Below are positions 54,023-64,000 of a stretch of DNA of 64,000 nt, in pieces; within the stretch, counting starts at the first letter, position 1, and each line of letters starts with the position of its first letter. This DNA is from Paracoccaceae bacterium (lineage in GTDB: Bacteria; Pseudomonadota; Alphaproteobacteria; Rhodobacterales; Rhodobacteraceae). The DNA lies in the NCBI GenBank assembly GCA_014323785.1, contig JACONJ010000050.1:62001-126000 (forward strand), in the 5' to 3' direction. Under the pieces are notes generated by a model. The model ran no database searches. It saw nothing but the letters and a program-made list of their open reading frames with translations, and had not been told where the DNA came from. The translations under genes were made by a program, and so were the position numbers.

Positions 54023-55210
54023 TTGACATTGAAAAACCGGATAAAACGCGCCCCCCGCACATTCGCCCGCCGTGTTGGTGATGCGATCACGCTGAAATCA
54101 ATGCGCCGGGCCCTTGGCCAAAGGCGTGCGGCCAAGGCAGAGAACCGCAAGCAATCCGAAATGCCCCCTTTGCGCCCTGAACAGAGCGGTGGCACTGGCA
54201 CAGTGGGGGCAGACGGTGCACCAAACAGGGACAACCGGGCCTCGGGTTCCCGCACATTCGCCCGCCGTGTTGGTGATGTGCTTACGCTGAAGCGAATGCG
54301 CCAGTCCCTTGGCCAAAGGCGTGCGGCCAAGGCAGAGAACCGCAAGCAATCCGAACGCCCCCCTTCGCACCTAGAACAGAACGGTGGCGCTGGCACAGTG
54401 GGGGCAGACGGCGCACCAAACCAGTCCAACCGGGCCACGGGCTCGCGCACATTCGCCCGGCGTGTCGGTGATGCAATCACGCTAAAACAAATGCGCCGGG
54501 CCCTTGGCCAAAGGCGTGCGGCCAAGGCAGAGAACCGCAAGCAATCCGAACGCCCCCCTTCGCACCCAGAACAGAACGGTGGCGCTGGCACAGTGGGGGC
54601 AGACGGCGCACCAAACCAGTCCAACCGGGCCAAGGGTTCCCGCACATTCGCCCGCCGTGTCGGTGATGCGATCACGCTGAAGCGAATGCGCCGGGCCCTT
54701 GGCCAAAGGCGTGTGGCCAGGGCGGAGGCTAGGGCAGAGAGGCGTGCGGCCAAAGCGGTGGCTAGGGCAGAGAAACGCAAACAATTTGTCCAATCCTTCA
54801 CTAAGCCAGTAATTGAGTCGGCTAAGGAGGCGATCCCGGAAATTATTGAATCGGCTAAGCCAAAAATTGATGCGGCCATTGATGCGGCTATTGAGTCGGC
54901 TAAGTCAGCAATCGAGCCGGCTAAGCCAACAATTAAGTCGGCTGCTAAGGGGTATCTTATCTTTAAGATTATCTCGCTGGTTATCGCGTTCCTGGTTGCC
55001 ATAGGGACTATCTTGCTTGGCTTGGGGAATATCCTGCAACCAATTGTGATTCAGCCATATTATGAAGGAACCCCCGAAGTCAGAAATCAAGGGACGATAC
55101 AGGGCATTAAGGAAGGGGGGCCCCCGCAGCAGGGCGATGGGACCGCCGGAACAGAAGCCGGGGTGGCCCCCGCCGCGACAACCGAAGGGGCGGAGGCACC
55201 TTCTGACTGA
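54023..55210 (+). CDS. Module B: arginine-rich 65-residue repeat protein with C-terminal membrane segment
   Basis: 395 residues, TTG start at 54023; not recognised. Three full copies and a partial fourth of a 65-residue repeat (period 195 bp, copies starting at 54056, 54251, 54446 and 54641) begin RTFARRVGDAITLKRMRRAL. Each has a basic first half (Arg/Lys/Ala-rich, helical) and a Gly/Pro-rich second half (GGAGTVGADGAPNQSN). An amphipathic Ala/Lys/Ile-rich stretch follows (IESAKPKIDAAIDAAIESAK). One membrane segment is at about 318-345 (IISLVIAFLVAIGTILLGLG). A Gly/Ala-rich tail ends it. It could bind nucleic acid or acidic surfaces at the membrane. Gene B and gene A appear to be paralogues. 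Confidence 0.6.
   Translation: MTLKNRIKRAPRTFARRVGDAITLKSMRRALGQRRAAKAENRKQSEMPPLRPEQSGGTGTVGADGAPNRDNRASGSRTFARRVGDVLTLKRMRQSLGQRRAAKAENRKQSERPPSHLEQNGGAGTVGADGAPNQSNRATGSRTFARRVGDAITLKQMRRALGQRRAAKAENRKQSERPPSHPEQNGGAGTVGADGAPNQSNRAKGSRTFARRVGDAITLKRMRRALGQRRVARAEARAERRAAKAVARAEKRKQFVQSFTKPVIESAKEAIPEIIESAKPKIDAAIDAAIESAKSAIEPAKPTIKSAAKGYLIFKIISLVIAFLVAIGTILLGLGNILQPIVIQPYYEGTPEVRNQGTIQGIKEGGPPQQGDGTAGTEAGVAPAATTEGAEAPSD
54056..54715 (+). repeat. 195-bp tandem repeats, 3.4 copies, inside module B
   Basis: Units start at 54056, 54251, 54446 and 54641, always 195 bp apart. Copies 2-4 are nearly identical, copy 1 more diverged. The unit length is a multiple of three, so copy number can change without frame loss. 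The partial last unit runs into the unique C-terminal region. The opposite strand is also open across the array for the same reason. Confidence 0.9.
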
Positions 55211-55360: not shown

Positions 55361-55379
55361 TTTTAGGTGTCCCTTCTTA

Positions 55380-55446
55380 ACAAGACCCGCCACGCCTCGG
55401 ACGGAGTTTCATCTCCGCACTGCGCACCCCGGCGGGTTACTTTTTT
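55380..55446 (+). ncRNA. Candidate structured RNA with terminator upstream of the Abi_2 gene
   Basis: The outer stem is ACCCGCC (55385-55391) with GGCGGGT (55431-55437), followed by TACTTTTTT, so it ends like an intrinsic terminator. Inside, CGGAG (55402-55406) pairs with CTCCG (55413-55417). A second hairpin, GCGGGC (55461-55466) with GCCCGC (55475-55480), abuts the ATG, with the GGGG ribosome-binding stretch in its loop. Some Abi_2 genes are preceded by the abiF RNA motif. Whether this is that family needs a covariance search. Confidence 0.4.
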
Positions 55447-55480
55447 GAAGCACCGCATTCGCGGGCTACAGGGGGCCCGC

Positions 55481-56386
55481 ATGAAGTTCGAAAAGCCTGC
55501 CCTATCCATACCGGATCAAATCGAGCTGCTGAAACGTCGCGGTATGGCCATTGAAGATGAAGCTTCGGCTCAGCATTACTTGAAATTCATCTCTTACTAT
55601 CGGCTCCGTGCTTACTGGCTCCCCTTTGAGGTAAACGCTGCGGTGGAAGGGGATCATGCATTCCATGCGGGCACAACCTTCAGGGATGTGCTGGCACTCT
55701 ACATCTTTGACCGAGAACTCCGATTGTTGGTGCTGGATGCAATTGAACGTGTCGAAGTCGCCTTTCGGGCACAGTGGACGCATCACATGGCGATGTGCCA
55801 TGGGGCACATGGCTATCTAGAACCAGGGCATTATGCGGATACTGAGCGTCACAAAAAGGCTGTCAAGGATATGAAAGAGGAGTTCAAACGATCACGCGAC
55901 AGATTCGCGCGTCACTACCGGGATAAATACACTCCCCCAGAACTTCCCCCTGTATGGATGGCCCCCGAAGTCATGTCATTTGGGATGCTGTCAAAATTCT
56001 ACAGTGATCTGAAGCATCGTGCAGACCGGCAGGCCATAGCCAGACCGTTTGGTCTGGACGAGAAAGTGCTCACCTCTGCTGCGCACCATATCAGTCATGT
56101 CCGCAATATTTGTGCCCACCATGGCCGACTTTGGAACAAGCGCCTCACGATGACGATGACAGTACCCAAATCCCCGGCAAGGCTACTTGTCGCCATGCGT
56201 GGTGCCAATGAACGCTACCTTCACAACACCCTTGTGATGCTTGATCACATGCTCACCATAATCGCACCGGATAATGAATGGAAAAAGCGGGTTCTGGACC
56301 TTCTTGATCGCTATCCACAGGCAGTTCCTTCCAGCATGGGGTTTCCCGATGATTGGTGCAAGAGAGCGGCGTGGAAAATCGGGTGA
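55481..56386 (+). CDS. Abi_2 (AbiD/AbiF-like) abortive-infection protein
   Basis: 301 residues from the ATG at 55481. IPDQIELLKRRGMAIEDEASAQHYLKFISYYRLRAYW is the Abi_2 opening (in pieces: QIELLKRRGM and ISYYRLRAYW). Middle motifs are YIFDRELRLLVLDAIERVEVAFR and PPVWMAPEVMSFGMLSKFY. The HEPN-type RNase motif is SHVRNICAHHGRLWN, with R..H spacing of RNxxxH type. It is presumably a phage-triggered RNase toxin. A structured leader and an upstream terminator-like hairpin precede it. It starts right after the module A/B region. Confidence 0.85.
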   Translation: MKFEKPALSIPDQIELLKRRGMAIEDEASAQHYLKFISYYRLRAYWLPFEVNAAVEGDHAFHAGTTFRDVLALYIFDRELRLLVLDAIERVEVAFRAQWTHHMAMCHGAHGYLEPGHYADTERHKKAVKDMKEEFKRSRDRFARHYRDKYTPPELPPVWMAPEVMSFGMLSKFYSDLKHRADRQAIARPFGLDEKVLTSAAHHISHVRNICAHHGRLWNKRLTMTMTVPKSPARLLVAMRGANERYLHNTLVMLDHMLTIIAPDNEWKKRVLDLLDRYPQAVPSSMGFPDDWCKRAAWKIG

Positions 56387-62878: not shown

Positions 62879-63166
62879 ATGGACGAGGTTCAGCGTTGCT
62901 TCTACCAGCGCGAATTCAAAATCGCCTTCCTCGAAAAACAGGGACAGGCGTTTGAGGATATGTTCTCCGGGATTATGGGCCATGCCTTTCCGGAAGACTT
63001 TCAACCGGTGCGTCCGTACGGCAACAAGGGCGACATGAAGTGCGATGGATACCGCGCCAGCGACAAGACCGTTTTTCAGTGTTACGCCCCCCGCACCATG
63101 AAACTCGCCGCGCTAAAGGCAAAGATCGATACCGATTTCAACGGTGCCGTTGACCATTGGGGCAGT
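62879..63166 (+). pseudogene. ABC-three-component system protein, N-terminal fragment of a split gene
   Basis: From the ATG at 62879 the reading follows the N-terminal part of the ABC-3C effector family: FYQREFKIAFLEKQGQAFEDMF, RPYGNKGDMKCDGY and VFQCYAPRTM (a PD-(D/E)XK-like or related domain) up to DFNGAVDHWGS (residue 96). Normal continuation (KM..W-type) is then lost and the frame runs into RHRHSPTGG until a stop at 63289. The true C-terminal end lies at 63843-63953. So the gene is interrupted by about 676 bp and is presumably inactive. Confidence 0.7.
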
Positions 63167-63177
63167 CGACACCGACA

Positions 63178-63205
63178 CTCGCCCACAGGCGGTCAAGTGG
63201 GCGAG
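63178..63205 (+). other. Perfect 9-bp hairpin at the left side of the insertion
   Basis: CTCGCCCAC (63178-63186) pairs with GTGGGCGAG (63197-63205) around a 10-nt loop. It lies just inside the left boundary of the inserted DNA. Element 2 has no equivalent. It could be part of a longer RNA with element 1 or a transposon-end structure. Confidence 0.6.
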
Positions 63206-63229
63206 GGACACAATCGATCAATTGTGATC

Positions 63230-63303
63230 GCCGAAACGCCCCCCTTCGGGGGGGGGGCGTATAAGGGGAAAAGGGCAACCCCTTACTGATGAGGCAGCCC
63301 GAA
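63230..63303 (+). ncRNA. Structured RNA element, copy 1
   Basis: Begins GCCGAAACG (63230-63238). Hairpin 1 closes ACG (63236-63238) with CGT (63258-63260) around a C6/TTCG/G-run stem. Hairpin 2 pairs AAGGGG (63263-63268) with CCCCTT (63279-63284) around a loop with AAGGGCAA. Then CTGATGA and GGCAGCCCGA (63286-63302). The loop GGGC (63273-63276) could pair with GCCC (63297-63300) as a pseudoknot. It lies 20 bp before the small ORF. Copy 2 conserves all three sequence blocks while changing both stems. Confidence 0.7.
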
Positions 63304-63322
63304 CTAGAGAGAGGAAGAACCC

Positions 63323-63553
63323 ATGGAAACACTTGCATTTTGCATCCTCACAGCGTTGGCAATCCTTTATCCGTCCCCCGACAATACCAGTGAAATAAGG
63401 CTACTCCGCATGATGGTGGCAGGCGAAATTGTATCAAAGATTGCTGAAGAAAAGGCAACAGGCATAAGCCTCGACGATTTTCGGGCTTTGCGTCAGCCCC
63501 CGCCTGATGATGAGATATTTCAATGCATAGAAAAACATTGGAACGATCTGTAA
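63323..63553 (+). CDS. Small ORF between the two structured RNA copies
   Basis: 76 residues, ribosome-binding site GAGAGAGGAAG upstream of the ATG at 63323. It is not recognised. A short hydrophobic start (LAFCILTALAILY) is followed by MVAGEIVSKIAEEKATGIS and a charged end (DDEIFQCIEKHWNDL). It starts 20 bp after RNA copy 1 and stops one base before copy 2. It does not resemble IscB, TnpB or a transposase. It may be a passenger gene of the element or chance. Confidence 0.45.
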   Translation: METLAFCILTALAILYPSPDNTSEIRLLRMMVAGEIVSKIAEEKATGISLDDFRALRQPPPDDEIFQCIEKHWNDL

Positions 63554-63619
63554 GCCGAAACGAGCCGACAGGCCCGTCACCGGGGCAAGGGCAAACCCGG
63601 TCTGATGATGGCAGCCCGA
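63554..63619 (+). ncRNA. Structured RNA element, copy 2
   Basis: GCCGAAACG (63554-63562) is identical to copy 1. Hairpin 1 is ACG-A-GCC-GACA-GGC-C-CGT (63560-63577). Hairpin 2 pairs ACCGGG (63579-63584) with CCCGGT (63596-63601) around a loop with AAGGGCAA. CTGATGA (63602-63608) and TGGCAGCCCGA (63609-63619) follow. The stems have different bases from copy 1 but still pair, which is covariation supporting an RNA. It starts right after the stop of the small ORF. Confidence 0.7.
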
Positions 63620-63684
63620 CAAAACCGGGAGAGAATCGATAGATTTTGCGATTGACCGCAAGGTGTGTGATGTTATGCCTTGCC

Positions 63685-63815
63685 GCGCGGACTAAGCTGG
63701 CCGCGCACTGGACAGCCAGCAGATGCCAACCGGGCGTCATCCCGGAACGTTGCTGGCTCAGGGAGGGGCAGGGGGAATGTGGGCTCTCCTTGCGCAGATG
63801 ACCCTGCCCCCTCCC
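63685..63815. other. Three consecutive strong hairpins at the right side of the insertion
   Basis: GCGCGG (63685-63690) pairs with CCGCGC (63701-63706). AGCCAGCA (63714-63721) pairs with TGCTGGCT (63751-63758) and encloses CCGGG/CCCGG (63730-63745). GGGAGGGGCAGGG (63761-63773) pairs with CCCTGCCCCCTCCC (63802-63815), one base longer. They lie between RNA copy 2 and the resumed ABC-3C reading frame and could be the right end of a mobile element. Confidence 0.6.
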
Positions 63816-63842
63816 GTCGATTCGCCAGCCATAATATTTGCC

Positions 63843-63953
63843 AACCTGACGCTCGCCTCGCCTTCGGTTCTGGCCATTATGTCGTATTTCTTCGAACGCT
63901 GCGACATTTTCGAAGACTATGACAGCCATGTTGTGAAGGACTCCACAGCATGA
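63843..63953 (+). pseudogene. ABC-three-component system protein, C-terminal fragment
   Basis: The frame ending at 63953 carries SPSVLAIMSYFFERCDIFE, which looks like the C-terminal end of ABC-3C effector proteins. Its TGA stop overlaps the ATG of the next gene (ATGA), as in intact systems. The N-terminal fragment is at 62879-63166. The residues before about 63843 in this frame do not resemble the family. Confidence 0.6.
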
Positions 63954-64000
63954 TTCTGCCAACCAAGCACATTCGCCCTGAACGGGCACTCTTTACCGTG
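63951..64000 (+). CDS. ABC-three-component system middle component, partial
   Basis: Only the first 16 codons are in the window: MILPTKHIRPERALFTV. This matches the start of the small middle component (MILPxKHxxxxRALxxVG) of ABC-3C systems as I know it. It would be followed outside the window by the ABC ATPase gene. It overlaps the C-terminal fragment of the split first gene by 4 bp. Confidence 0.6.

Follow-up and report, generated by a model that had tools for sequence, protein, structure and literature searches.

Type II hammerhead ribozymes around a 76-residue open reading frame in a broken ABC-3C effector gene: a probable role in separating genes

Two RNA elements placed in the same direction inside a broken ABC-3C effector gene are, on the evidence of their sequences, type II hammerhead ribozymes, that is, self-cutting RNAs. 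They lie in the window, by which we mean the whole 64,000-nucleotide stretch of a Paracoccaceae genome that was analysed, and further copies occur elsewhere in the same genome, where they follow the ends of open reading frames and precede starts. We consider it probable that such ribozymes cut a polycistronic RNA into mRNAs of one gene each, with hairpins at their ends, and that the sets found here are pieces of a phage-type operon.

Results

Identity and fold of the two RNA elements

The whole window was scanned against 4,227 Rfam families, which gave three matches, one to a tRNA and two to Hammerhead_II (RF02276). The latter score 42.0 bits (copy 1) and 40.3 bits (copy 2), both above the curated gathering cut-off of 37 bits. 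The original prediction had described two copies of one structured RNA element within a split gene, and Rfam places them where it did, on the plus strand. The features of the region, all on the plus strand, are as follows (R1 is a covariance model built from these hammerhead sequences; cleavage sites are predicted from the hammerhead rule).

62879-63169, plus: ABC-3C effector gene, N-terminal part (residues 1-97), 72% identical to an intact 303-aa homologue in L023; PADLOC LmuA, E=1.1e-4
63170-63229, plus: inserted DNA, left part; beyond 63169 there is no homology to the effector gene
63229-63303, plus: type II hammerhead, copy 1; R1 40.3 bits
63230-63232/63293-63295, plus: copy 1 stem II, without the extra U
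63261/63262, plus: copy 1 predicted cleavage (GUA), between these two positions
63262-63268/63279-63285, plus: copy 1 stem I
63286-63292, plus: copy 1 CTGATGA core
63323-63553, plus: ORF of 76 aa, preceded by a purine-rich ribosome-binding site; the TAA stop directly adjoins ribozyme 2
63553-63620, plus: type II hammerhead, copy 2; R1 66.1 bits, copy 2 being itself part of the R1 model by construction
63554-63556/63610-63612, plus: copy 2 stem II
63578/63579, plus: copy 2 predicted cleavage (GUC), between these two positions
63579-63584/63596-63601, plus: copy 2 stem I
63602-63608, plus: copy 2 CTGATGA core
63609, plus: copy 2 extra U, between A9 and stem II
63621-63863, plus: inserted DNA, right part; leader similar to that of the C21 copy (63573-63644 aligned to C21, 74.7%)
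63864-63953, plus: ABC-3C effector, C-terminal remnant, 89% identical to residues 278-296 of the L023 homologue; Pfam CTD10 18 bits, below the cut-off of 28.1
63950-64000, plus: start of the ABC-3C middle component (81 aa), an open frame in L009; gene order as in the intact L023 system

The invariant core (CUGANGA, GAAA and the UH at the cleavage site) is intact in both window copies, and a U insertion after A9 is present in copy 2 only. The words that the copies have in common, GCCGAAACG, GGGCAA and CTGATGA(T)GGCAGCCCGA, correspond to the hammerhead core, loop I and stem II; GCC-GAAA-CG runs from stem II through the core into the beginning of stem III, CTGATGA belongs to the core, and (T)GGCAGCCCGA to stem II and the tail. 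Both copies resemble RF02276 in their core, in their three stems with an open stem II and in the cleavage triplet, whereas the consensus stem II of the family has 2 bp and that of the window copies 3 bp, with the extra U in copy 2, differences that Rfam aligns as insertions.

The fold was examined by a covariation test, in which an alignment of 15 diverse sequences was compared with shuffles and with slid structures. Standard pairs fill 98.1% of the cells against 77.5 +/- 2.1% after shuffling, both-side changes occur at 8 pairs and in 38 cells against 11.8 in shuffles, and control structures slid by 1-3 columns pair in 26-42%. The signal is carried by stems I and III, stem II being almost invariant, and it backs a fold in which stems I and III are closed and stem II is open. 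The expectation that stem bases differ between the copies and still pair is borne out for stems I and III, as is selection on an RNA fold, and the covariance-model search returned homologues with compensatory changes in addition to the match to a known RNA family. A GGGC-GCCC pseudoknot between loop I and the tail, also envisaged, can indeed be formed in both copies, but covariation does not favour it, since among 58 loop/tail pairs at least 4 bp form in 26 with the own partner and in 24.8 +/- 2.4 when partners are swapped. The suggested kinship to the HEARO/omega-RNA of IscB elements, likewise a structured RNA near mobile-element genes, was rejected, neither copy giving an Rfam HEARO match at the gathering threshold. 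Single-sequence folding energy is weak evidence (z = -1.83 and 0.10 for the two copies): the minimum-energy fold of copy 2 is the expected three-way junction, with a stability no greater than that of shuffles, and that of copy 1 is not a hammerhead by energy alone. The case for hammerheads thus rests on the covariance models and not on folding energy.

The insert and the broken effector gene

The effector gene is split, in substance as predicted: its homology to the intact protein covers only the two terminal segments listed above, and the middle has been replaced, with about 695 bp of other DNA in place of about 540 bp. Effector, middle component and ATPase follow the order and homology of the intact L023 system, but the effector is broken and its CTD10 match lies below the cut-off. 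The ATPase (609 aa) comes next, past the window end, and its frame and that of the middle component are both open. The locus is thus an example of a small insertion disrupting a defence system.

Ribozyme 1, the 76-aa ORF and ribozyme 2 all point in the same direction, the hammerheads forming direct copies 324 bp apart. The N-terminal effector frame continues into ribozyme 1, with a stop at 63289, and in another frame of the left part an ORF end (DTRPQAVKWARDTIDQL-stop) is found whose stop lies 2 nt before ribozyme 1. The 76-aa ORF gave no match in Pfam, NCBIfam, PADLOC or PHROGs and no relative among the phage records or viral contigs searched, and the insert DNA showed no similarity to the plasmids or phages searched. 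There is no clear gene start 3' of ribozyme 2; in the right-part leader an ATA occupies the position of the ATG start at C21, and the gene behind ribozyme 2 may have been lost through this replacement of its start.

Other copies in the genome

Searching the 2.55-Mb genome with R1 revealed nine copies, two in the window, two at C28 and one each at C29, C21, C44, C40 and C50:171112, so that about seven copies at six sites exist besides the window set. Four of them (C44, C50:171112, C40 and the second C28 copy) score 25-39 bits with R1 and are unseen by Rfam even at E = 0.1; their assignment rests on R1 together with their position after an ORF end and before a start. The core is intact in six of the nine. 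The C21 copy carries the change U4C, C50:171112 has GCGA for GAAA, and the second C28 copy combines both; as these changes should harm catalysis, some copies appear to be decaying. The GCGA elements at L119:4113-4183 and L121:3343-3406 keep the fold and are probably dead as ribozymes. A GCGA core as a widespread type was considered and rejected, since it was found in one viral contig only.

The surroundings of three sites were compared with those in 5-6 congeners, in which the DNA after hslV, tsf and acnA is without cassettes. The hslV site (C28) is clean: in the congeners the following gene overlaps the hslV stop or adjoins it, and here the two are separated by about 2.1 kb (L121:1640-3740) in the order ORF, hammerhead, N6_N4_Mtase-HNH fusion gene, hammerhead-like element and ORF, the outer ends of the array being without a ribozyme. 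The tsf and acnA sites are weaker cases of insertion because flanking gene order differs too. Downstream of tsf, at C40 (L120:3848-4520), a hammerhead is followed by a 170-aa VasI/TagO-like protein (PF11319, phrog_1848) and then by a second hammerhead, which is cut short after stem I; the phrog_1848 protein adjoins the CI repressor region in Labrenzia phage vB_LagS-V1. The only hint of a prophage is a fragment resembling a recombinase end, which has no Pfam or PHROGs match. Cargo differs at every site, and apart from the ribozyme the sites have in common no more than one short 3' segment. Two cassette sites share a stretch of 52 bp (83%; L119:3744-3795 and L123:5826-5876) behind the cargo ORF; it contains a hairpin and a T run and is perhaps a common 3' end or terminator.

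Distribution and the stop-codon junction

R1 matches were found in 7 of 296 genomes of the order, only this genome having more than one, and at class level one other among 385 genomes has two; the matches in relatives L149 and L154 lie within coding-like sequence and were discarded as apparent chance. A pattern scan returned 35 stretches in species genomes, mostly Planctomycetes (L027-L061), and 47 in viral contigs (L062-L108), and when 13 of these loci were rescanned with Rfam all 13 held a type II hammerhead above the cut-off. The subtype, whose stem II has 3 bp and which usually carries an additional U after the catalytic A9, is found among Planctomycetes and a few other bacteria and in viral contigs. 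The extra U is present in every clear copy of the planctomycete and other genomes read, a count biased by the U having been built into both the pattern and the model; a viral scan without it gave 10 contigs. We found no report of Planctomycetes hammerheads in the open-access literature, and closed journals may hold one.

For 81 copies the neighbourhood was examined, seven pattern-scan loci that look like chance matches being left out (L030, L037, L038, L040, L058, L059 and L060). In 70 of the 81, the stop codon of an ORF of 40 aa or longer lies no more than 6 nt before the ribozyme, compared with 17 of 405 random positions, and the gap between stop and ribozyme is 0-1 nt in 60 of them, figures to be read knowing that many copies are related and so not independent. 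A Shine-Dalgarno-like motif accompanies 71 of 78 downstream starts, which lie at a median of 34 nt after the ribozyme. In Planctomycetes one lysine-rich downstream family with a HARE-HTH domain has partners from at least 14 families upstream, which indicates that the ribozyme belongs to the junction rather than to a particular pair of genes.

Some further observations were made in these genomes. In Planctomycetes and viral contigs the ribozyme often has a variable small gene before it and a lysine-rich HARE-HTH gene after it, and some genomes carry up to five copies. An identical hammerhead sequence is shared by Vibrio pacinii and a Pseudoalteromonas genome (L033, L050, L054), occurring twice in the latter about 1.8 kb apart; these hammerheads precede a short ORF and have no upstream stop nearby.

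Discussion

That hammerheads flank small ORFs or genes in bacteria and phages has been known since 2011. Perreault et al. 2011 described type II hammerheads whose tandem copies flank genes in prophages, found three tandem sets to be cleaved in vitro and an A. tumefaciens set to be active in E. coli, and proposed an RNA-processing role for such sets (PMC3088659). A 2017 review describes hammerheads as flanking ORFs whose products are small and non-conserved, and calls the role of these hammerheads open (PMC6155905); hammerheads are also enriched near Mu-like phage genes (PMC10085705). The set described here resembles the prophage tandem hammerheads (PMC3088659, PMC6155905) in that direct copies enclose single small genes, of unknown function, in the neighbourhood of phage-type genes; it differs in that small sets are spread over several separate places on the chromosome, one of them in a defence gene, and that no prophage was recognised around the sets. 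The prophage hammerheads that lie behind HU-like genes in the same bacterial family are also type II and placed directly after a stop codon and before another gene, but they have a 2-bp stem II (GC/GC), another loop I and one copy per genome. Fresh here are the scattering of sets over the chromosome, the tight junction of stop codon and ribozyme, and the +U subtype, which earlier counts may have underestimated, since Perreault et al. excluded matches mispaired beside the core unless found active (PMC3088659).

The separation of genes that we favour would proceed as follows. When the plus strand is transcribed, each ribozyme would fold right after the stop codon and cut itself after 63261 and 63578, respectively. 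Double cleavage would free a 317-nt mRNA of the 76-aa ORF with the stem I hairpin at its 5' end and the stem III hairpin at its 3' end, and both end hairpins would be likely to slow its decay. The source would be a phage-type operon with ribozymes separating its genes, pieces of which landed at several chromosomal sites, one of them replacing the middle of the ABC-3C effector gene. Of this account, the analysis shows the family to which the ribozymes belong and their covariation, the layout from stop to ribozyme to start, the insertions and the breakage of the gene. The separating role is supported by the Rfam matches, the strong covariation and the consistent plus-strand layout from stop to ribozyme to start, and by the processing role and the cleavage in vitro and in E. 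coli reported by Perreault et al. (PMC3088659); cleavage in the cell and protection of the mRNA ends are inferred. A phage origin is suggested by the cargo, which includes the methyltransferase-HNH fusion and the phrog_1848 VasI/TagO-like protein. Against the favoured reading stand the core changes in three of the nine copies, the lack of a clear gene start after ribozyme 2 and the fact that a single recombinase-like fragment is all that hints at a prophage.

The same facts could be read as those of a relic, the ribozymes having once been useful in a phage operon and the chromosomal pieces being now neutral and possibly untranscribed. The core changes in three of nine copies, the truncated copy at C40, a ribozyme 2 without a clear gene behind it and an insert that destroys the effector gene would all suit such decay, while the intact core and stems of both window copies and the open 76-aa ORF with its ribosome-binding site speak against it; we regard this explanation as possible but doubtful.

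A wider version of gene separation, to which we attach little weight, would make the +U subtype with a 3-bp stem II a general separator after stop codons, in which cleavage is coupled to translation by terminating ribosomes that cover the 5' strand of the ribozyme, and small genes bounded by ribozymes move as modules from genome to genome.

In integrons, attC forms the border of a cassette, and the ribozyme DNA could similarly border exchangeable gene cassettes, recombination between copies shuffling the genes. The ribozyme-separated genes at seven sites of one genome, the array of ORF, ribozyme, methyltransferase, ribozyme and ORF between hslV and its neighbour, and the single downstream family that in Planctomycetes is combined with many different upstream families agree with this. 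We nevertheless judge it improbable, given that the ribozymes always lie on one strand relative to the genes, that the covariation suits an RNA, that the outer ends of the hslV array lack a ribozyme and that no recombinase is tied to the array. Retrozyme-like copying via a circular RNA cut out by two ribozymes, for which two direct hammerheads 324 bp apart around one unit and the hammerhead circular RNAs of plant and metazoan retrozymes (PMC4918200, PMC7229834) might plead, is highly improbable and was rejected, as no ribozyme-flanked unit is common to the sites, nothing is shared past the ribozyme and the short 3' segment, the window set has protein-coding cargo and no copied unit, most other sites have a single ribozyme, and Perreault et al. 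detected no circular products (PMC3088659).

The tight stop/ribozyme junction, present in Planctomycetes, viral contigs and this genome, makes the role of a bacterial hammerhead directly testable, and it raises the questions of whether terminating upstream ribosomes block cleavage and whether hairpin-ended products are longer-lived.

Elsewhere in the window, tandem repeats of ~195 bp (about 90% identical) were noted at 54054-54727, within a 395-aa ORF (54023-55210) that lies just upstream of an Abi_2-family gene (55367-56386).
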